In this document: positions 26,962 to 36,113 of the stretch, one piece after another
How positions within the stretch are numbered: position 1 is the first letter of the stretch
Layout of the letters: each line of letters opens with the position of its first letter
Source: Arthrobacter sp. ov407
Lineage (GTDB): Bacteria; Actinomycetota; Actinomycetes; Actinomycetales; Micrococcaceae
DNA: 64,000 nucleotides
Assembly: GCF_900102895.1 (NCBI RefSeq)
Contig: NZ_FNGD01000003.1
Location: 1-64,000 of the forward strand
Direction: 5' to 3'
Notes under the pieces: generated by a model
Database searches by the model: none
What the model was told of the DNA's origin: nothing
What the model saw: only the letters and a program-made list of their open reading frames with translations
Translations under genes and position numbers: made by a program

Positions 26962-28152
26962 TTAATCGCGCTCTGGAGATTCTGGCGCTTTCCGAGTTTC
27001 GAGCTTTTGGAGGCCGCCCGCAAATTGGCAGTTGTGAATTAAGAGTTCGGTGAAGTCAAACCCGCTCATTTCTTCACTGCCTGCAAATATGTTCTTGTCG
27101 AAGGTGCAGTTGATGAATGACAAGGATTTGGGCCGCTGATACGTGGCGAAGCTAAAGCTGCCGTCTTCAAATCGGCAGTCTTTGAAGGTTAGGGACAGGG
27201 CATCGCGGCTTTGTTCGACATTTTCAAATTTTGTTCCGCTGAAAGTGCAGCGGTTGAAGTCGATTCGACCGCGACCACTGCCGTTTTCGTCGATGCTGTA
27301 TCTGATGCTGCCGCCATGAAACACGGAGTCCTGGAAGAGAAGATTGCCCAGGTCCAACTGAAGATCGGTCAGGTCGACGCTGCCGGCTGCCATGTACCAC
27401 CTGATCATGAAGCCGATGTCATAGTCTCCACGCTCCTCGGCACGAACGCCTCGAAGGTCCAACTGTGCGCCATTGACGTATAGGTCGGAAATGTTGGACG
27501 GAGCGTGATATGCCATGTTGATGCGCAGCCCCCAGTACCGTCCCTCCGCGAGCCCTGCCTTTAAGCGGCCGAGGATCGTCGCGCTAATGAGCGAGCCTAC
27601 ATTCGAAAGATTATCTTTGTCCTTCTTCGCCAGTCTTAGAAATTCAGTCAAAAGACTGACACAGTTTTGCCGCTCAACTTCGTTACGCTGCTCAAACCAT
27701 TCATCGGTCAGGGACTCGATTGAATGGACGCCAGCAATGGCAAGGGGGAGTTTCTTGCTCCCCAGCTGTTCTGCTGCAAGTGAGTAACGGTCCCTGAGGG
27801 CGGAGACCACCTCGGTATCATGCTGCCGTTGCTGTAGTTCCAAAAGGCTGTTGGTGATCGAGAGATTTTCCTCTGTCGCCCTTTGACGCCGGTAGGTGAG
27901 GAGAAGCGTCACACCAACACCGAGCGCAGCCGCTGCTGTCACGGCGTTACGAAGAACGCCGGACTGTTGATCAGTCGTCAGCGTCTGCTGATTTCCCAAG
28001 GGTGTCAGACTCTGCGTGGTGTAGGCGGCAAAGACGTACGATAGCGCCGCGACCAAGGCTAGAGAGGCGAGAAACCCGAGTAGAACCAGCCCCCACAGGC
28101 TGACCTTTTCCTTCGAAGCAGCCACCGGGGACTCGTGACGTTTCCTAGACAT
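26962..28152 (-). CDS. Membrane-anchored pentapeptide-repeat-like protein
   Basis: 396 aa. Two membrane helices lie at residues ~18-45 and ~68-86 (GVLRNAVTAAAALGVGVTLLLTYRRQR), followed by a coiled-coil stretch and RYSLAAEQLGSKKLPLAIAGVHSIESL, the typical anchor part of actinobacterial pentapeptide-repeat membrane proteins. The C-terminal ~150 residues form a right-handed beta-helix-like series of imperfect repeats (FNRCTFSGTKFENV, FKDCRFEDGSF, FINCTFDKNIF). Its base composition is more AT-rich than its neighbours, suggesting transfer. The function is unknown; it sits alone between the TetR and an alcohol dehydrogenase. Confidence 0.82.
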   Translation of the reverse strand: MSRKRHESPVAASKEKVSLWGLVLLGFLASLALVAALSYVFAAYTTQSLTPLGNQQTLTTDQQSGVLRNAVTAAAALGVGVTLLLTYRRQRATEENLSITNSLLELQQRQHDTEVVSALRDRYSLAAEQLGSKKLPLAIAGVHSIESLTDEWFEQRNEVERQNCVSLLTEFLRLAKKDKDNLSNVGSLISATILGRLKAGLAEGRYWGLRINMAYHAPSNISDLYVNGAQLDLRGVRAEERGDYDIGFMIRWYMAAGSVDLTDLQLDLGNLLFQDSVFHGGSIRYSIDENGSGRGRIDFNRCTFSGTKFENVEQSRDALSLTFKDCRFEDGSFSFATYQRPKSLSFINCTFDKNIFAGSEEMSGFDFTELLIHNCQFAGGLQKLETRKAPESPERD

Positions 28153-28212: not shown

Positions 28213-29259
28213 TCAGGGCACCAGGATGAAGCGGATCGGGTCGCCGATCTTGTTCGCCAACCGGTTGACCGCGTCGGCGGCCTCGGCGAGCGGGAAGTGG
28301 TCGGTGATCGAGGGCGCGAGGTCTAGACGGCCGACCTCGGCCAGCCGGACCAGTTCGCTGACGGACTCGGGGGTGCCGCCGTAGTGGCCGCGTACCTGCT
28401 TGCCGAGGTAGTTGAAGGTCAGGCCCTCGGTGATGGTGAGGGGCCTGGGGCTGATGCCGACCAGGATGAGGGCGCCGTTGAGGCCGAGTACGGAGGCGGC
28501 CTGCTCTCGGACGGCGGGCACGCCGGCGCAGTCGAAGGCGAAGTCCAGGCCTCGTCCGCCCGTAGCCGTGCGGATGTGGTCGGCGAAGTCGTCGGCTGCG
28601 GGGTCCAGGGCAAAGTCCGCACCGAAGGCCAGGGCACGCTCGCGGGCGCTGGGCAGCGGGTCGACGGCGATGACCGGCGCGGCGCCGGCCATGCGGGCGA
28701 CGCGGACGTTGTGGGCGCCGACTCCGCCGACGCCCCAGATGCCGACGGACTGAGCGGGGCGCACCCCGGCGGTGGCAACGACGGCGGCGTAGGGGGTGGA
28801 AACCGCGTCGGGAATGATCGCAGCCTGATCGAAGGGGAGGTTGTCGGGGATGGGGATGAGCGTGTCCTCGCGGGCGAGGGTGTACTGGGCCCAGCCGCCG
28901 TCGTAGTCAATGCCGGCGGTGAGCATCTGGGTACAGGGGCGGCGGCGCACGCAGCCGGCGCACTGGCCGCAGGTCTTGCCGGCCTCAAGGGTAACGCGGG
29001 TGCCGACGGCCAGGCCGCGCTTGAGGTCAGGACCGAGGGTGTGGATCACCCCGGCGACCTCGTGGCCGACGGTGACCGCGTCGGAGGTGGCGAACAGCGG
29101 GACGAGGGAACCGTCGAGCAGGTGGACGTCCGACAGGCAGACACCTGCGGCCTTCACCTCGATCAGGATTTCACCCGGCCCCGGAACGGGGATGGGGACC
29201 TCCTCCACGGCGAACTTCTTGCTGTCCAGGTGGAAGCGTGCGGCGAGCATGGTATGCAT
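28213..29259 (-). CDS. Zinc alcohol dehydrogenase (P450 cluster)
   Basis: 348 aa. Catalytic zinc ligands: AGVCLSDVHLL and TVGHEVAGV; the structural zinc loop is CGQCAGCVRRRPC (four Cys). The NAD site is GIWGVGGVGAHNV. The start is ATG 29259 or 29250. It lies 169 bases after the 60-aa peptide gene and ~460 after the P450, on the same strand, so it is probably co-transcribed with them. In this context it could oxidise an alcohol made by the P450, for example a hydroxy fatty acid; that is inference. Confidence 0.9.
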   Translation of the reverse strand: MHTMLAARFHLDSKKFAVEEVPIPVPGPGEILIEVKAAGVCLSDVHLLDGSLVPLFATSDAVTVGHEVAGVIHTLGPDLKRGLAVGTRVTLEAGKTCGQCAGCVRRRPCTQMLTAGIDYDGGWAQYTLAREDTLIPIPDNLPFDQAAIIPDAVSTPYAAVVATAGVRPAQSVGIWGVGGVGAHNVRVARMAGAAPVIAVDPLPSARERALAFGADFALDPAADDFADHIRTATGGRGLDFAFDCAGVPAVREQAASVLGLNGALILVGISPRPLTITEGLTFNYLGKQVRGHYGGTPESVSELVRLAEVGRLDLAPSITDHFPLAEAADAVNRLANKIGDPIRFILVP

Positions 29260-29340: not shown

Positions 29341-29394
29341 TGGTGGCCGGGAAGGTGCGGTGTCGGGTCCGCCGCACCCGCCCGGCGTCTGGGG
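29341..29394. repeat. Hairpin repeat A, after the 60-aa peptide gene
   Basis: CCGGG-AA-GGTGCGG (29347-29360) pairs with CCGCACC-CG-CCCGG (29372-29385). The flanking GTGGCCGGGA... and ...CCCGGCGTCTGGGG bases recur as repeat B (29658-29714), so the peptide gene is bracketed by two copies. Confidence 0.75.
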
Positions 29395-29428: not shown

Positions 29429-29611
29429 TCAGTCAGCTGCGGTCTCGCAGTACCAGCCCGCCCATGGCGTATGGGTCAGCTCGCAAGCCTGCCGGTGCTG
29501 AAGGTGAGCAGGTGCAAGTTGCGGTGGCGGTAATGTCGTTGCATCGGTTTTGCCGATGGCTGTCAGGATGCCTTCTTGAGGGGCGGCCGTGGCCTGGGTT
29601 TCCGTCGCCAT
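29429..29611 (-). CDS. Small peptide, 60 aa, unknown function
   Basis: ATG 29611 has a near-perfect AAAGGAG at the right distance, which supports real translation. The N-terminal half is Ala/Thr-rich and soluble (MATETQATAAPQEGILTAIG), the middle is proline-rich (TLPPPQLAPAHL) and the C-terminus is distinctive: a CELTHTPWAGWYC loop with two Cys and three aromatic residues, then ETAAD. There is no signal peptide or membrane segment. A leader-plus-compact-core shape is a possibility (modified peptide or a small metal or protein partner) but I recognise no family. It lies between the P450 and its alcohol dehydrogenase and is flanked by two copies of a GC-rich hairpin. Confidence 0.6.
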   Translation of the reverse strand: MATETQATAAPQEGILTAIGKTDATTLPPPQLAPAHLQHRQACELTHTPWAGWYCETAAD

Positions 29612-29657
29612 GGTGACTCCTTTGTTGATTTGCTGAGTGGTGTGTTTGGCCGGTGAG

Positions 29658-29715: not shown

Positions 29716-32700
29716 TTAGGCGAAGACGTCCTGTTGGTAGCGCGCATCGGCCTCGAGCTGGGCGAGCCACTGCTGGGCGGCCTCGTCGTCGCTGCCGGTC
29801 CGCTCGCGGTAGATCGCCGCGAGGGCCTCGCGCACGGCGGGCGCCATGCGGCGGCCGTCACCGCAGACGTAGATGTACGCGCCGTCTTCGATGGCCTGCC
29901 ACAGCGTGTCGGCGGCGTTGGTGATGGCGTTCTGGACGAACCGGGCCGGGTGGCCGGTCACCGCGGAGTAGGCGGTGTGTACTTGGGCGATCCCGGCCTG
30001 CTCCCAGTCCTGCATCTCCTGCCGGTAGAAGTAGTCGTGCTCCGGGTGACGGCAGCCGACGAAGACCTGCGACAGTCCCACCTCAGTGCCGTTCTCGTGC
30101 TGCGACTCGCGTTCCTCCAGGAAGCCGCGCAGTGGCGCGATGCCGGTGCCGGGGCCGATGAGGATCAGCGGCGTGGCGGGGTCGGCCGGCGGGGCGAAGG
30201 TCGGGGAGGGCACGCGCACGTAGCCGTAGAAGACGTCCCCGGGCTCAAGGCCACCGATGTACGACGAGCAAGTGCCCCGGTACTGGCCGTCACCGGACCG
30301 GGCCGGGCCTTCCAGCAGGCCAACGGTCAGGCGCACGTGGCCGGGGTTGGCCAGCGGGGCGGAGGAAATGGAGTAGAACCGCGGGCGGATCGGGCCCATC
30401 ATGTCCAGGAAGACCGCCAGCGGCAGCTCTACCGCCCGGAAGCGCTCCAGCAGGCCCAGCACGGAGACCCGCTTGCCCAGGATCTCAGTCTGATAGCGCT
30501 CCTCGGATTCGGCGGTGTCGGCCGTGTAGGCCTGCAGCTGCGGTCGGGTCCACGGGCACTCAGTGTGCTCAGCCAGCGTCCGCATCTGAGAGCGGGTGGC
30601 CACGTCCTGCAGCTCGAGGAAATCGGTGAGCAGTAGTCCTGCCGTCACAGGGGTGCCCACAGGGAGGTGGGTGCGGCCGCCGGCGGGCAGCTCCAGGCGC
30701 AGGACCTGATCGCGGTCGACGCCGAGCCCCGCGAGGGCGCGGTTCACCAGGGCCGGTTCGTTCTTGGCGAAGACGGCCAGATGGTTGCCCGTCTCGTAGG
30801 TGACACCCTCCGGCAGCCCGATGGTGATGGACTTCGCCGATGGGCGCGGCGGCTCGAGGCTGAAGTCCCACAGGCCGGTCGCGTCGGCCACGAGTTCCTC
30901 GTTGGCCACCACCGTGAGGGGGTAGGCCTGCTCGGAGACGATCGCGGGGCGCACGTCCGCCTCGGTGAGCAACTGCACCTGGAAGCGCGGACTGCTCGCC
31001 TCGGAGGTGTCGGCGGCGTACTCCTCGGCCAGGGTGGCCCACAGGGTTTCCATCCAGCGGGTGGCCATGCCGTCGAAGTCACCGGCGGCATCCGCGGCGC
31101 CGCGCTCGATGACGGGGGTGGCGCCGGCTGCCAGCAGGCCTCCTTCGATCCGCTTGGGGAAGCCCTGGTAAGTGGCCACCCACTGGGTGTTGCCGGCCCC
31201 CAGCAGTGCGAACCGCACGTCCGACAGCGAACCCTCCGGGAGTCCGGCGGCGAGCAGGTCGTCGAAACGCTGCGCGTTGTCCGGGGCCTTGCCGTTGTAG
31301 CTGGAGGCCACCACGACAAGCAGGCCCTCGGTGGGCAGGTTGTCGCCCAGCTCGTCCAGACCGATCAGCGTGGTGCCAAAGCCGGAGCGCTCACTGCGGT
31401 CGGCGATAGTGCGCGCCAGGTCCTCGCACGAGCCGAGGCTGGAGCCGTAGGCGACGGTCAGGTTCACCCCGACACCGCTGACCGCGGCCTGCGCCCGCGT
31501 GTCACCGGTCTGCACGTCCACTGCGCCGAACGCGGTCCGCTCGTGCTCCTGACGGGACCGCACTTCCAGTTCGAAGCCGCCGGGCTTGCGCGTCAGCGCC
31601 TCCTGGACATCCATCTTGTAGTCGTTGGTGTCGGCGAACTTGAACTTCTGCAGCACCAGTGCGAGGGCCAAACGGGCCTCGGTGAGCGCAAACTGCCGGC
31701 CGATACAAGCACGCACGCCGTTGCCGAACGGCTTGTAGGCGTGCGGGTGGTGGTTGACCCGGTTCTCCGGCAGCCACCGGTTGATGTCGAACTCCTCCGG
31801 CCGGTCCCACGCCTTGGGGTGGGTGTGCAGCGGGCCCTCGAGGATGTTGACCCGCGCTCCCTTCTTCAGCTCGTAGCAGCCGCCGATGACGGTGTCCTCC
31901 AGAGGGGACTTGCCGATCATCGGGATGGGAGCCCACAGGCGCAGGGTCTCCTCGAGGATGCGCGGGATCACGTCCATCTGCATGATCGTGTCGTAGTCCG
32001 GGACCGTGTCGCCCGGCAGCAGTCGGTCCACCTCGGCGTAGGCCTGGGCCAGCACGTGCGGGTTACGCATCAGCGAGTACGTGGCGAACGACAGTAGACC
32101 ACTGGTGGTCTCGTGACCGGCGATCAGGAATGTCACCACCTGGTCACGGACGTTGTCGTCGTCCAGCCCCTTGCCGGTCTCCGGGTCGGTGGCCTCCAGC
32201 ATCAGACCCAGCAGGTCATCCTCAGCAGTGCTCTTTCCCTCACGGCGCTCCTTGATCACACTCTCGACCAGGTCTCGCATCAGCTGGATGTTCGCGCGGT
32301 AATTCTTGTCATCGGCCTTGCGCAATTTGGTCATCATCGGCAGCTCCTGCGTGCGCCGCAGCGACTCAACCAGCGCCTCCAGCAGCGCGTTGAGGAAGGG
32401 GTGCAGATCCTCCTTGGCGAAAGAGTCGAACCGGTAACCGAATCCCGAAAGGGCGATGGTGTCCAGGGTCAGCCGGGTGTAGTCGTCGGTGATGTTGACC
32501 GACTGGCCCTCCCTGCGGTCCCACTTGCCCACCAGGTTCTGGGCTATCTCCAGCATCTGCCCGTAGTAGCCCTTCATCGCCCGCTGGCTGAAGGCCGGAA
32601 GAAGGACTCGGTGTGCTGCGCCCCATTCCTCCTCGTGCTGGTGGGCCGTGAACAGGCCGGCGCCCGTGAAGTCGCGGACATGGGCCAGCGGCGTCTTGTC

Positions 32701-32937
32701 GATCTGCTTGAAGAACCGGGTCTCGTCGCAAACCTCTGCCACCAGGTCCGGGTCCCAGACGAAGACCTGCTCGATGCCGGCGATCTCCATGCTGTAGAGC
32801 CCCTCGGGGAACTGCTTGGACAGTTCGCCGAAGTACTCCACCGGGTTGGTGCTGGGGATCTGCGGTGTGTGGCCGAAGAGCGGGACCCCGCGCGGAGACC
32901 GGATGGGTCGCGGGTCGTTCTTGGACTGTGTGGTCAT
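29716..32937 (-). CDS. Self-sufficient cytochrome P450-reductase fusion, CYP102 (BM3) type
   Basis: 1073 aa, the usual CYP102 length. The P450 domain (~1-470) has the BM3-like GAGLFTAHQHEEEWGAAHR, the oxygen-activating AGHETTS in helix I (~275) and the heme thiolate loop FGNGVRACIGRQFAL with Cys411. A flavodoxin-like FMN domain (VAYGSSLGSCEDLARTIA, from ~490) and an FAD/NADPH reductase domain (RFYSISSAP, then IGPGTGIAPLRGF and VYVCGDGRRM) follow. It hydroxylates fatty acids or related lipids with NADPH in one chain. ATG 32937 has CAAGGAG. Paired CATAC dyads and a TetR gene lie upstream, as BM3R1 does for BM3; the peptide and dehydrogenase genes follow. Confidence 0.95.
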   Translation of the reverse strand: MTTQSKNDPRPIRSPRGVPLFGHTPQIPSTNPVEYFGELSKQFPEGLYSMEIAGIEQVFVWDPDLVAEVCDETRFFKQIDKTPLAHVRDFTGAGLFTAHQHEEEWGAAHRVLLPAFSQRAMKGYYGQMLEIAQNLVGKWDRREGQSVNITDDYTRLTLDTIALSGFGYRFDSFAKEDLHPFLNALLEALVESLRRTQELPMMTKLRKADDKNYRANIQLMRDLVESVIKERREGKSTAEDDLLGLMLEATDPETGKGLDDDNVRDQVVTFLIAGHETTSGLLSFATYSLMRNPHVLAQAYAEVDRLLPGDTVPDYDTIMQMDVIPRILEETLRLWAPIPMIGKSPLEDTVIGGCYELKKGARVNILEGPLHTHPKAWDRPEEFDINRWLPENRVNHHPHAYKPFGNGVRACIGRQFALTEARLALALVLQKFKFADTNDYKMDVQEALTRKPGGFELEVRSRQEHERTAFGAVDVQTGDTRAQAAVSGVGVNLTVAYGSSLGSCEDLARTIADRSERSGFGTTLIGLDELGDNLPTEGLLVVVASSYNGKAPDNAQRFDDLLAAGLPEGSLSDVRFALLGAGNTQWVATYQGFPKRIEGGLLAAGATPVIERGAADAAGDFDGMATRWMETLWATLAEEYAADTSEASSPRFQVQLLTEADVRPAIVSEQAYPLTVVANEELVADATGLWDFSLEPPRPSAKSITIGLPEGVTYETGNHLAVFAKNEPALVNRALAGLGVDRDQVLRLELPAGGRTHLPVGTPVTAGLLLTDFLELQDVATRSQMRTLAEHTECPWTRPQLQAYTADTAESEERYQTEILGKRVSVLGLLERFRAVELPLAVFLDMMGPIRPRFYSISSAPLANPGHVRLTVGLLEGPARSGDGQYRGTCSSYIGGLEPGDVFYGYVRVPSPTFAPPADPATPLILIGPGTGIAPLRGFLEERESQHENGTEVGLSQVFVGCRHPEHDYFYRQEMQDWEQAGIAQVHTAYSAVTGHPARFVQNAITNAADTLWQAIEDGAYIYVCGDGRRMAPAVREALAAIYRERTGSDDEAAQQWLAQLEADARYQQDVFA

Positions 32938-33003
32938 GGGTTGCTCCTTGTGCAGGGCGGGGATGGGCTATTGCGCCGGTGATGCGGAGATGCATCTCCG
33001 AAA

Positions 33004-33039
33004 CATACAATGTATGGAAGATCAACCATACAACGTATG
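33004..33039. promoter_or_regulatory. Paired CATAC-N3-GTATG operators (P450 leader)
   Basis: CATACAATGTATG (33004-33016) and CATACAACGTATG (33027-33039), 23 bases apart as in the ABC leader and the ACT-protein leader. They are 67 bases upstream of the P450 and ~97 before the TetR start. Confidence 0.87.
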
Positions 33040-33103
33040 AAAGATCGACCGCAACCCTGAATGTCGGGCGACCGCCATCCCGCCGCGAGGCCGAGGTTAT
33101 TTC

Positions 33104-33119
33104 CATACGCTGTACGTAT
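33104..33119. promoter_or_regulatory. Third CATAC-like operator, at the tetR-1 promoter
   Basis: CATACGCTGTACGTAT is a slightly degenerate copy of the same dyad, 17 bases before the TetR start. The matching place before tetR-2 has CATACACTGTATG (35271-35283). It suggests autoregulation. Confidence 0.75.
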
Positions 33120-33135
33120 TTGATAGTGTCCGAGT

Positions 33136-33798
33136 ATGGAAAAAACGAAGAGCTCTCCGCGCGGGACCAGGAAGAGGGAGGTGCCGCTGACCGAGGCCGG
33201 CATCTACGCCGCCGCCCTGCGGCTCATCGACGCGGACGGGGTCGACGCGCTCACCATGCGTAAACTTGCCACCGCGCTCGATGCGAACCCGATGTCGCTC
33301 TACTACCACGTGCCGAATAAGGACGCCGTGCTGCGCGGCGTGGCGAGAATGGTCGGCGCCCAGTTCCGCACCGTGAAGCTGGAGGACGCTCCCTGGCAGG
33401 AGCGCATCCGTCTGCTCGCCACGGATTTCCGGACGCTGGCGCACAGCCACCCCAAGCTCATGGGCTACTCGTTCAGCCTCCAGTCGGACTTCATCCAGCC
33501 TGACGACCCGTTCTGGATTGAGCTCACTGCGATCCTGGACGCCGCAGGGATGCCGCACTCGGAGCTCTCTCATTTCACCGCTCTCGTGGGCTTCGCCATC
33601 AACGGTGTCCTCACCGCCGAACTCACCGGCGCGCTCCACCGGTGGTCGAGCCTCAAACCCCCCAGTGTCGGCGAAGACGGGCTCACCCCTCCAGGCCGTG
33701 ACGAGAACCGCGTCTTCCGCCTGGCGCTGGACACGATCATCATGGGCCTGGAGGGCCAACTCGCCGCCTATGGTGACTTCCAGGGCGCCGACCATTGA
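33136..33798 (+). CDS. TetR-family regulator tetR-1 (P450 cluster)
   Basis: 220 aa. Helix-turn-helix at residues ~15-60: PLTEAGIYAAALRLIDADG, LTMRKLATALDANPMSLYYHV, NKDAVLRGV. The C-terminal domain is of the TetR_C type. It is divergent from the P450 and ~80% identical to tetR-2 at 35303 over the DNA-binding part, differing at a few recognition-helix-side positions (TAL/SVL, YYHV/YHHV). A BM3R1-like repressor that fatty acids release is a reasonable model. Operators lie at 33004-33039 and 33104-33119. Confidence 0.92.
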   Translation: MEKTKSSPRGTRKREVPLTEAGIYAAALRLIDADGVDALTMRKLATALDANPMSLYYHVPNKDAVLRGVARMVGAQFRTVKLEDAPWQERIRLLATDFRTLAHSHPKLMGYSFSLQSDFIQPDDPFWIELTAILDAAGMPHSELSHFTALVGFAINGVLTAELTGALHRWSSLKPPSVGEDGLTPPGRDENRVFRLALDTIIMGLEGQLAAYGDFQGADH

Positions 33799-33879
33799 TT
33801 GCAGTCCTGTAGCATTCCGGCCCAAAAAGCGCCCGGCTAGGCGGCTTTGGTGAGGGGGAGTTCGTCCCAGTAGATTTCA

Positions 33880-34180: not shown

Positions 34181-35104
34181 CTATTGCCGGGGCCTTACCA
34201 GGTGTTTTCGTGTCAAGTCAGTGAGCTCGGCGAGCTCGGCTAGCCGGTGCGCCCGGGCGGATTCGGCCGGGGTGAAGGGCGCCCGGGGGCGGGAGAAGCC
34301 GAGGGGTCCGTGCCGGGGGGATGGTATTTTCAGGACGGTCCCATCACATGCCGGTTTGCTGGCCGCGGGTGAGGTGCTGTCGCCGGTGGGAGCCGCGACG
34401 GGTTCGGCGTCGAGCAGTTCGGCAACCGCGAGTTGGAGTTCGCCCGGGTCCTCCACGACCCGCAGGGCCAGGGCGAGGGCCTTGGTCTGGCCGTCCGCCA
34501 CGGTCTGGGCTGTCGCCGGCCACGCTCGGACATCCCGTCCTCCGCCGCCCGCGGCCGCAGCGAGCAGTTCCGCGTGGGTGACATGATCGGGCGCGGAGAC
34601 GACCAGCTCGTCCAGCATCCCGCCGGCAACGGTGTGATTCCGGCACACGAGGATCTCGGCGTCGACGCGGGAGATGGCCTCTACCAGTTTCTCCTGGGCT
34701 TCGTTGCTGTAATCGATCAGCGTGCGGACCCGCCACAGGGCCGCAGAGTTGTGCAGCCGGCCCCGCTGGCGCAGGGCCGGTGCGTGCAGCCAGCCCCGCA
34801 GCGCGCGCCGGACGGAGGGCTCGGCGACCCAGATCACCAGTACGGTGGCCGTCAAAGTCAGGACCAGTACCTTTAGAACATAAGGCAGCGCCGCGTTCAC
34901 TACGGCGGCGTGAACCAACAGCTCAATCGGCAGCATGGCTGTGACGTTGGCCAAGGTAAGGCGGGCTTTTGAGGGATGGGGCAGTTGGCCGCAGGCGTCA
35001 CACAGAAGCGCTTTGATGGGGTTCTTTCGAGGCGTTGAGGTGGCTATGCTGTGGACGCGCGGGGACCGGCTGGATGCCAGGTCGTTGGTGGAGTGTACGG
35101 TCAT
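34181..35104 (-). CDS. Two-TM membrane protein with ACT-like domain
   Basis: 307 aa from ATG 35104. After ~60 soluble residues, including CDACGQ, there are two membrane helices (LANVTAMLPIELLVHAAVV and YVLKVLVLTLTATVLVIWVA), then RRALRGWLHAPALRQRG. Residues ~125-235 look like an ACT domain: WRVRTLIDYSNEAQEKLVE, GGMLDELVVSAPDHVTHAEL, GGGGRDVRAWPAT, DGQTKALALALRVV; ACT modules sense small ligands. The tail is Pro/Arg-rich. The first ~12 codons (MTVHSTNDLASS) are a copy of the ABC transporter's start, so leader and start were duplicated together. Confidence 0.8.
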   Translation of the reverse strand: MTVHSTNDLASSRSPRVHSIATSTPRKNPIKALLCDACGQLPHPSKARLTLANVTAMLPIELLVHAAVVNAALPYVLKVLVLTLTATVLVIWVAEPSVRRALRGWLHAPALRQRGRLHNSAALWRVRTLIDYSNEAQEKLVEAISRVDAEILVCRNHTVAGGMLDELVVSAPDHVTHAELLAAAAGGGGRDVRAWPATAQTVADGQTKALALALRVVEDPGELQLAVAELLDAEPVAAPTGDSTSPAASKPACDGTVLKIPSPRHGPLGFSRPRAPFTPAESARAHRLAELAELTDLTRKHLVRPRQ

Positions 35105-35168
35105 GGGTTGCTCCTTTGTACAGGGCGGTATGGGCAACGGCGCCGACGATGCGGCGTGCACCGCAAAA

Positions 35169-35204
35169 CATACGCTGTATGGAAGTTCAACCGTACAGCG
35201 TATG
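35169..35204. promoter_or_regulatory. Paired CATAC-N3-GTATG operators (ACT-protein leader)
   Basis: CATACGCTGTATG (35169-35181) and CGTACAGCGTATG (35192-35204), 23 bases apart. The whole ~100-base leader back to the start codon matches that of the ABC exporter. Confidence 0.87.
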
Positions 35205-35270
35205 GAAGGTTGACCGCAATCCGGAGCCGCACGGGCGATTGCCATTTCGCCGCGCGGCCGAGGCCAGTTT

Positions 35271-35283
35271 CATACACTGTATG
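35271..35283. promoter_or_regulatory. CATAC-N3-GTATG operator at the tetR-2 promoter
   Basis: CATACACTGTATG, 20 bases before the TetR start, in the same place as the degenerate site before tetR-1. Confidence 0.82.
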
Positions 35284-35302
35284 TATCTGATACCGTCCCT
35301 GT

Positions 35303-35953
35303 ATGGACAAAGTGAAGAATCGCGCGCGGGGAACCAGGAAGAGAGAGGTCCCTCTGACCGAGGCCGGGATCTATGCCGCCGCCCTGCGGCTCATCGACGC
35401 GGACGGGGTCGAAGCGCTCACCATGCGCAAACTCGCGTCCGTGCTCGATGCGAACCCGATGTCGCTGTATCACCACGTGCCGAACAAGGACGCCGTGCTG
35501 CGCGGCGTGACCAGAATGGTGGGCACACAGTTCCGCACCGTGACGCTGGAGGACGCTCCTTGGCAGGAGCGCATCCGCCTGCTCGCCACGGATTTCCGGA
35601 CGCTGGCGCACAGCCACCCCAGGCTCATGGGCTACTCGTCCTGTCACAAGGCGGACTTCATCCAGCCCGACGACCCGTTCTGGATTGAACTCACCGCGAT
35701 CCTGGACGTCGCAGGGGTGCCGCGCTCCGAGCTCCCGCATTGCACCGCCCTCTTGGGCGCCGTCATCACCGACGTCCTCACCGCCGAACTAAACGGGGCG
35801 TCAAGCCTCAATCCCCCCAATGTTGGTGAAGGCGGGCTCACCCCTCCAGACAGTTACGAGAACCGCGTCTTCCGCCTGGCGCTGGACGCGATCATCATGG
35901 GCTTGGAGAGCCCACTCGCCGCCGATGGTCACTTCCAGGGCTCCGACCATTGA
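35303..35953 (+). CDS. TetR-family regulator tetR-2 (paralogue of tetR-1)
   Basis: 216 aa, closely similar to tetR-1 along its length; the DNA-binding part is nearly identical (PLTEAGIYAAALRLIDADGV), and a 4-residue deletion in the C-terminal part (TGALHRWSSLK versus NGASSLN) separates them. It is divergent from the ACT-domain gene with three operators between. The duplicated block runs from the paired operators through the gene and a few bases beyond (both stops are followed by TTGATTG). Ligand specificity may have diverged. Confidence 0.92.
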   Translation: MDKVKNRARGTRKREVPLTEAGIYAAALRLIDADGVEALTMRKLASVLDANPMSLYHHVPNKDAVLRGVTRMVGTQFRTVTLEDAPWQERIRLLATDFRTLAHSHPRLMGYSSCHKADFIQPDDPFWIELTAILDVAGVPRSELPHCTALLGAVITDVLTAELNGASSLNPPNVGEGGLTPPDSYENRVFRLALDAIIMGLESPLAADGHFQGSDH

Positions 35954-36113
35954 TTGTGCAGCCCTGTAGCGTTGCCGCCTGAGAGCGCCCTGGCGGGCTC
36001 AGGCCGCAACGCATTAGGGGGCATCCTTGCTTCCAGTATCTGTATGGGATTTCTCGCAGCTCCGGTGCGGGCGGATGGTGTCGCGGTGGGGGAGCGGTTT
36101 GCGGGTGGCAGAT

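Follow-up and report, generated by a model that had tools for sequence, protein, structure and literature searches.

A small open reading frame (ORF) of 60 codons was found on the minus strand of the window, by which is meant the whole stretch of 64,000 nucleotides of Arthrobacter sp. ov407 that was analysed. The original prediction had placed a small gene with a near-perfect ribosome-binding site between a P450 gene and a dehydrogenase gene, and this was confirmed at 29429-29611 (-). The features of the locus are as follows:

29716..32937, minus strand: upstream gene, P450 fused to FMN/FAD reductase, 1073 aa
29663..29705, minus strand: hairpin copy 1, immediately behind the P450 stop codon
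29617..29623, minus strand: ribosome-binding site AAAGGAG, 5 nt before the ATG
29579..29629, minus strand: ribosome-binding site and first 11 codons resembling the start of an intradiol (catechol 1,2-type) dioxygenase gene, from comparison with genomes G544 and G461
29429..29611, minus strand: 60-aa small protein gene with ATG start, from the ORF call and from homologs at the same place in loci L025, L026 and L027
29450..29479, minus strand: codons of the conserved tail motif L45-T-H-T-P-W-A-G-W-Y54
29347..29385, minus strand: hairpin copy 2, between the 60-aa gene and the dehydrogenase gene
28213..29259, minus strand: downstream gene, zinc-binding alcohol dehydrogenase, 348 aa
33136..33798, plus strand: TetR-family regulator, divergent from the P450 gene
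35056..35979, no strand assigned: second copy of 32889-33822 (TetR gene, promoter region and P450 start), 84% over 940 nt

The domain order encoded by the upstream gene (P450, flavodoxin, FAD and NAD domains) suggested that the fusion should be read as CYP102-type. Onward on the same strand, genes were found for an FAA hydrolase, an AMP-ligase, an FAD monooxygenase and a glyoxalase-fold dioxygenase-like protein, the last of which scored below the dioxygenase cut-offs, and these genes fit catabolism better than peptide biosynthesis. The copy at 35056-35979 shows that tandem duplication has occurred at the P450 locus. A 354-aa ORF (34181-35245), which had no Pfam or NCBIfam match at E ≤ 1, starts inside the second P450 start region. 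An inverted repeat, TGTATGG..CCATACA (33011-33032), was observed upstream of the P450 start and represents a possible TetR operator. The region 26962-28152 encodes a 396-aa protein with a pentapeptide-like C-terminus, whose gene also comes after the dehydrogenase gene in L025 and L027, and which matched the model of the anti-phage Hailong effector HalA with an E value of 1e-6, far below the cut-off.

The product of the small ORF, MATETQATAAPQEGILTAIGKTDATTLPPPQLAPAHLQHRQACELTHTPWAGWYCETAAD, is preceded by the start context AAAGGAG-TCACC-ATG, which contains a strong ribosome-binding site; a Shine-Dalgarno core 5-14 nt upstream was present for 8 of the 293 ATG ORFs of 50-100 aa in the window, nested starts being counted. 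The product contains Cys43, Cys55, Trp50, Trp53 and Tyr54, and its residues 45-54, LTHTPWAGWY, display the tail pattern defined below. Third-position GC was 0.62 in the ORF versus 0.90 in the P450 and dehydrogenase genes alike. The segment 29579-29629 aligned with the beginning of an intradiol dioxygenase gene at 92% identity over 51 nt in G544 and at 88% over 43 nt in G461, so that the present start of the ORF looks borrowed from a dioxygenase gene, which is the direction of transfer that we infer. No Pfam or NCBIfam match was obtained for the ORF at E ≤ 1. An AlphaFold2 model based on four sequences had a mean pLDDT of 58, with residues 1-17 below 50 and means of 71-76 across residues 41-60, and comprised a helix (34-42) and two strands (43-48 and 52-57), which lends weak support to the view that the tail probably forms a short beta-hairpin.

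A scan of genome contigs revealed three Arthrobacter relatives of the ORF, in 131MFCol6.1 (83%), ok362 (75%) and Bi26 (88%), which correspond to G502, G581 and G019 of the genome searches and were counted once. In each of them, the ORF followed the P450 3′ end and preceded the dehydrogenase gene. A 42-aa form was found in G572, with just remnants of the P450 and dehydrogenase genes within the 19-kb stretch examined, while in another genus of the same family (G710) a 99-aa ORF lay between an intact P450 gene (91% identity) and the dehydrogenase gene, starting with a degenerate dehydrogenase start and ending THTPWAGWYYETDPD. A dehydrogenase-derived start codon was in frame with the tail in G710 (99 aa), ok362 (102 aa) and G572 (84 aa). 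The frame was open in all six genomes carrying the P450-type ORF, including the shorter G572 form, which stays in frame with 18 codons fewer. Among four genomes, the 183-nt ORF showed zero indels, versus five gap patterns in the 172-column 3′ spacer. Moreover, ten tail residues were identical in the four closest genomes, and synonymous codons vary while residues are retained. The original prediction had described a Cys/Trp-rich C-terminal loop and made its conservation in relatives the point to check; the tail L-x-H-x-x-W-A-G-W-Y proved to be conserved, and the idea survived in part, since Trp-x-Gly-Trp is kept but both cysteines vary. Cys43 is replaced by Gly in ok362, and relatives further away, which retain Trp-x-Gly-Trp, have Tyr, Glu, Gln, Phe or Ile in place of Cys55.

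The two hairpins that flank the ORF belong to direct-repeat families whose copies lie 317-319 nt apart, D1 with 80% identity over 40 nt and D3 with 88% over 32 nt, and their RNAs folded at -33.8 and -36.7 kcal/mol (z -3.9 and -4.1), with 0 of 200 shuffles as good. No further good copy was found in the genome, in which the sole other match covered 18 nt (E 0.44), and no Rfam family was matched. Neither of these strong hairpins was among the terminator-like sites listed for the minus strand, the pattern expected of an intrinsic terminator or attenuator being a GC hairpin followed by a T run. Second-copy remnants of the dehydrogenase gene were observed directly before the tail ORF in G710, G572, ok362 and 131MFCol6.1; they comprised leader and start (90% over 87 nt) and an internal piece (91% over 75 nt) in ok362, and a single piece (83% over 53 nt) in 131MFCol6.1. 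In the window and Bi26, only the hairpin remains of the duplicated segment upstream of the small ORF. Immediately behind the ORF, G710 retains 76 nt of another P450 copy (76% identity, E 9e-13; residues 925-970 by tblastn). From these remnants we conclude that a segment comprising the P450 end, the hairpin and the dehydrogenase gene was duplicated in tandem, the first dehydrogenase and the second P450 copy being mostly lost thereafter, and that two hairpins surround the small ORF because of this old duplication. Thus, the position between two near-copies of one hairpin, regarded earlier as unusual, is real but is explained by duplication rather than by function. The proposal that upstream hairpins of different genomes are mutually closer was rejected, identities being 0.88-0.90 between upstream hairpins versus 0.82-0.96 between upstream and downstream ones; one loop base alone separates the two kinds (T in 4/4 versus A in 4/4).

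The tail was not restricted to the P450 operon. The tail family was defined by the C-terminal pattern [LV]-[TV]-[HS]-x-x-W-[AVIS]-G-W-[YH], located in the last ~30 residues of an ORF of at most 80 aa. A profile built from the four 60-aa forms and the G047 ORF yielded three new strong matches (G513, G572 and G544) among 206 genus genomes, and many weak matches, the first bridging ones having E values of 0.002-0.023 per genome over the same 206 genomes. Three weak motif-bearing matches (G461, G387 and G479) were added to give profile A4, which produced 36 matches in 35 of 204 genus genomes at E ≤ 4.3e-7, the later matches of the 52-aa branch being not independent of the choice to include the bridging G479. 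Thirty-three of the 36 were fetched, leaving out G540, G266 and G521, and these comprised five of P450 type, four of HpaB type, one of HsaA type (G387) and 23 of a 52-aa branch (22 analysed together, plus G591). The proteins of the set share the tail and have differing N-termini. An oxygenase gene, or what remains of one, was present at the loci of all 33 fetched matches, counting G513 and G572, with remnants only in the stretch examined, Bi26, where the contig cuts the P450 gene, and L132, whose contig ends before the monooxygenase gene. Of five weaker A4 matches (E 6.7e-4 to 2.7e-3), the four that were fetched (G585, a second one in G461, G579 and G574) were tail ORFs at oxygenase operons, and the fifth (G530) contained three stops.

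The P450/HpaB tails (profile A7) matched the 52-aa branch with bridging sequences excluded (A6) at E 2.9e-4 and 41% probability in profile-profile comparison, and matched the H..WAGW form of that branch (A8) at E 2.8e-7 and 93% probability, aligned at the tail. Together with the genomic setting, these comparisons provide independent support for linking the branches, a link that rests on about 12 residues. Five relatives' proteins had no NCBIfam match at E ≤ 0.01, eight Pfam scans of relatives returned only AcrF3 for the 46-aa protein of G461 (E 0.053, below cut-off), and profiles A6 and A7 had no match in the PDB at E ≤ 10. None of six sequence words of the family occurred in any paper of the library searched, and no title or abstract opening retrieved on small proteins of Arthrobacter, indole/IAA and hydroxyquinol clusters or CYP102 operons mentioned such a gene. 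No relative was found in the viral contigs and plasmids searched with the window peptide.

Patterns of the tail were also sought at several taxonomic levels. A narrow DNA pattern matched 1 of 396 order-level genomes, namely the window itself. The GTNCAY..WAGW pattern matched 18 places in 15 of 204 genus genomes, versus 6 genomes with the reversed control, and 5 of the 18 were judged true tails. Among 325 family genomes, H..WAGW[YH] matched 11 places in 10 genomes versus 4 genomes with the control, four matches being judged true (the window, G710 and two in G387), while among 325 class-level genomes it matched 7, the window alone being judged true, and the control matched more (about 14). Outside the family, the latter pattern shows no excess over the control. 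Profile A9 gave three matches at E ≤ 0.01 in 137 family genomes, the third of which (G624, E 0.001) adjoins a gene read as NirD-like and was judged to be chance. Weak matches of the first search (e.g., L007, L008 and L012) look like chance frames, and of seven Rhizobium/Neorhizobium plasmid records matched by the 46-aa relative (E 0.01-6), the three fetched were all membrane-protein-like, and these matches were rejected. No match to the tail was obtained in three named plasmids that carry HpaB operons. The Paenarthrobacter ureafaciens plasmid pADNL1 (L149, 3001-3100) carries a 31-aa ORF, MKNVKLIHDRRMQWERTH.., between an aldehyde dehydrogenase gene and a DUF779 gene, with a ribosome-binding site and N-terminus like those of the 52-aa branch and without the tail.

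The genomic settings of the tail ORFs were compared. In all 22 loci, the 52-aa gene had a divergent AraC gene on one side and an SDR gene on the other, and a StyA-type monooxygenase gene, whose product matches the StyA model NF045732 below cut-off, was present in 21 of 22, the contig of L132 ending. A flavin reductase was sought in just three loci of this branch, those viewed at length (G479, G387 and G591), and a second monooxygenase and a flavin reductase followed in 3/3. In L121, from the same branch, the small gene was seen by eye to be flanked by two similar upstream regions, with TAGAGTC.CTT and ATGACGCA blocks, perhaps two copies of an AraC-controlled promoter.

In the HpaB type, the tail ORF was directly behind hpaB in G544 and G585, in operons with a flavin reductase and an intradiol dioxygenase, and behind a 29-32-codon remnant of the hpaB end in G047 and G513. 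In G461, which has HpaB with flavin reductase and intradiol dioxygenase, two tail copies were found around a maleylacetate reductase gene, one of them overlapping its stop codon as ATGA. For the tail before the maleylacetate reductase gene (L063, 7941-8140), the closest good start is in a different frame, and this copy represents a frameshifted gene or else a 24-aa peptide that begins with TTG. An HsaA-type oxygenase with flavin reductase and maleylacetate reductase accompanied the tail in G387, G574 and G579. Thus, the tail was present at four oxygenase classes (the P450-reductase fusion and StyA-, HpaB- and HsaA-type flavin monooxygenases), and at the loci viewed at length the common factor was an oxygenase served by a flavin reductase. 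A full HpaB (E ≤ 1e-100) was found in 6 of 101 genus genomes, none of whose six loci had a tail ORF inside about 1.5 kb, the one in G047 lying ~6 kb off; counting G544, G585 and G461, 3 of 9 HpaB loci had an adjacent tail, and the tail is not obligatory for HpaB loci.

Selection differed between branches. In the 52-aa branch, pN/pS over all pairs of the 22 sequences was 0.17 overall, 0.10 in residues 2-26, 0.10 in the tail (residues 34-47) and 0.82 in the linker, and this StyA branch is under strong purifying selection. In the P450 branch, pairwise dN/dS of the ORF was 0.33-1.02 (six pairs), versus 0.07-0.12 for the dehydrogenase and 0.10-0.18 for the P450, and in residues 43-60 pN was 0.069 versus a pS of 0.104 (six pairs, with too little divergence for a firm reading). 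Our reading is of a weak constraint that falls mainly on the tail, the serious alternative being a functionless relic.

Taking membership and role jointly, the explanation that we favour, tentatively and at slightly below an even chance, is that the ORF represents, in the P450 operon, a set of small Arthrobacter proteins (about 42-80 aa) that appears to be undescribed and would act as accessory or regulatory proteins of oxygenase operons. The 60-aa ORF would be translated in the window strain, and its tail hairpin would dock on a partner, the likeliest candidates being the oxygenase, the flavin reductase that serves it and the dehydrogenase, all made from the same operon. The small protein would thereby tune activity, assembly or stability. 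The N-terminal part would be replaceable, the window version having a start that matches a dioxygenase gene start. A small partner or regulator of the P450 was among the options of the original prediction, and it gained support from the recurrence of the tail in several kinds of oxygenase operon and from purifying selection in the 52-aa branch, but selection in the P450 branch is weak. Nothing pointing to a toxin, which the original prediction also named, was noticed. A bolder version, which we consider unlikely, is that Trp-x-Gly-Trp is a portable docking module shared by four unrelated classes of flavin-reductase-fed oxygenases, where it might recognise a shared feature, such as the reductase surface or reduced flavin; the N-terminal sequences differ, with starts from the dehydrogenase, the dioxygenase or their own.

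That the family is real elsewhere and the P450-operon ORF a decaying, functionless leftover at a duplication junction is somewhat unlikely, and it is the alternative with most in its favour: a dN/dS far above that of the neighbours, the atypical third-position GC, a 5′ part repeatedly rearranged with a borrowed start, and P450 and dehydrogenase debris as flanks in relatives. The persistence of the G572 ORF with only remnants of both genes in the 19-kb stretch examined counts against the accessory or regulatory role. Against a decaying sequence stand a frame open in all six genomes and still kept in the shortened G572 form, the lack of ORF indels among the four closest genomes beside a spacer with five gap patterns, ten identical tail residues in those genomes, and a tail that remained in frame with a start codon despite several 5′ changes. 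It is quite improbable that the small protein targets transcription or the operon regulator, which is TetR here and AraC or LuxR-type elsewhere, instead of the enzymes. The 52-aa gene does sit immediately between AraC and the catabolic genes in 22/22 loci, an AraC gene adjoins the tail ORF in G387, with a similar gene near in G574, and a LuxR-type gene, by reading, adjoins it in G579 and G047; but the regulator families differ between loci, and no adjacent regulator was recognised in G544 and G585, where the ORF is behind hpaB, or in G461, where it overlaps the maleylacetate reductase stop codon.

Attenuation, in which the ORF, with two Trp codons, would be translated as a leader peptide and would set dehydrogenase expression together with the hairpin that follows, would agree with the shortness of the ORF and with the strong hairpin before the dehydrogenase start. 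It is nevertheless very unlikely, as the other hairpin precedes the ORF, neither is among the minus-strand terminator-like sites or in an Rfam family, and in G544, G047 and G579 a convergent gene comes after the tail ORF, leaving nothing downstream to control. The original prediction also raised a modified-peptide precursor, of which cross-linking of the C-terminal W-A-G-W-Y-C by the P450 into a small natural product would be an example. An aromatic-rich C-terminus does adjoin a P450, and P450-modified RiPPs with aromatic cores exist (PMC11450843), but this explanation is not supported and is highly improbable. The P450 gene encodes a reductase fusion and shares its strand with FAA-hydrolase, ligase and monooxygenase genes, the same tail occurs beside unrelated catabolic flavin monooxygenases and maleylacetate reductase, the cysteines are unconserved, 8-25 further residues follow the tail in several relatives, and the KSLK-type leader motif of atropopeptides (motif list in PMC11450843) is absent from the 60 residues by reading.

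If the accessory or regulatory role is real, a small protein encoded next to the oxygenases has been overlooked in the biodegradation operons of a well studied soil genus. The gene is short and no member scanned has a family model, and leaving out such an accessory protein could make a difference when these oxygenases are produced in other hosts. The locus also illustrates how a small gene originates and persists, with a duplication pocket between hairpins, swapped starts and a short tail held in frame.

Compared with known systems, the ORF resembles the precursors of atropopeptides and biarylitides (PMC11450843, PMC13417212) in being short, in its aromatic C-terminus and in adjoining a P450, whereas it differs from them in having no KSLK-type motif, in its catabolic setting and in a tail common to non-P450 operons. 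In the available portions of the literature on Arthrobacter styrene/indole-type monooxygenase operons and the like, including that on the Providencia indole cluster (PMC9871250), no mention of the 52-aa gene was found. These Arthrobacter operons house the best-conserved tail relatives, between the AraC and SDR genes. A further likeness is to the effector or coupling proteins of the MmoB, TmoD and DmpM kind, which are small, cofactor-free proteins of oxygenase operons, thought to tune the enzyme. Both groups are small proteins encoded within oxygenase operons. However, proteins of the MmoB kind serve diiron oxygenases and are folded domains with a length of about 90-140 aa, whereas those of the tail set, which had no Pfam match above cut-off among the proteins scanned, have about 42-80 aa, conserve only a 12-residue tail and lie beside flavin monooxygenases and a P450.
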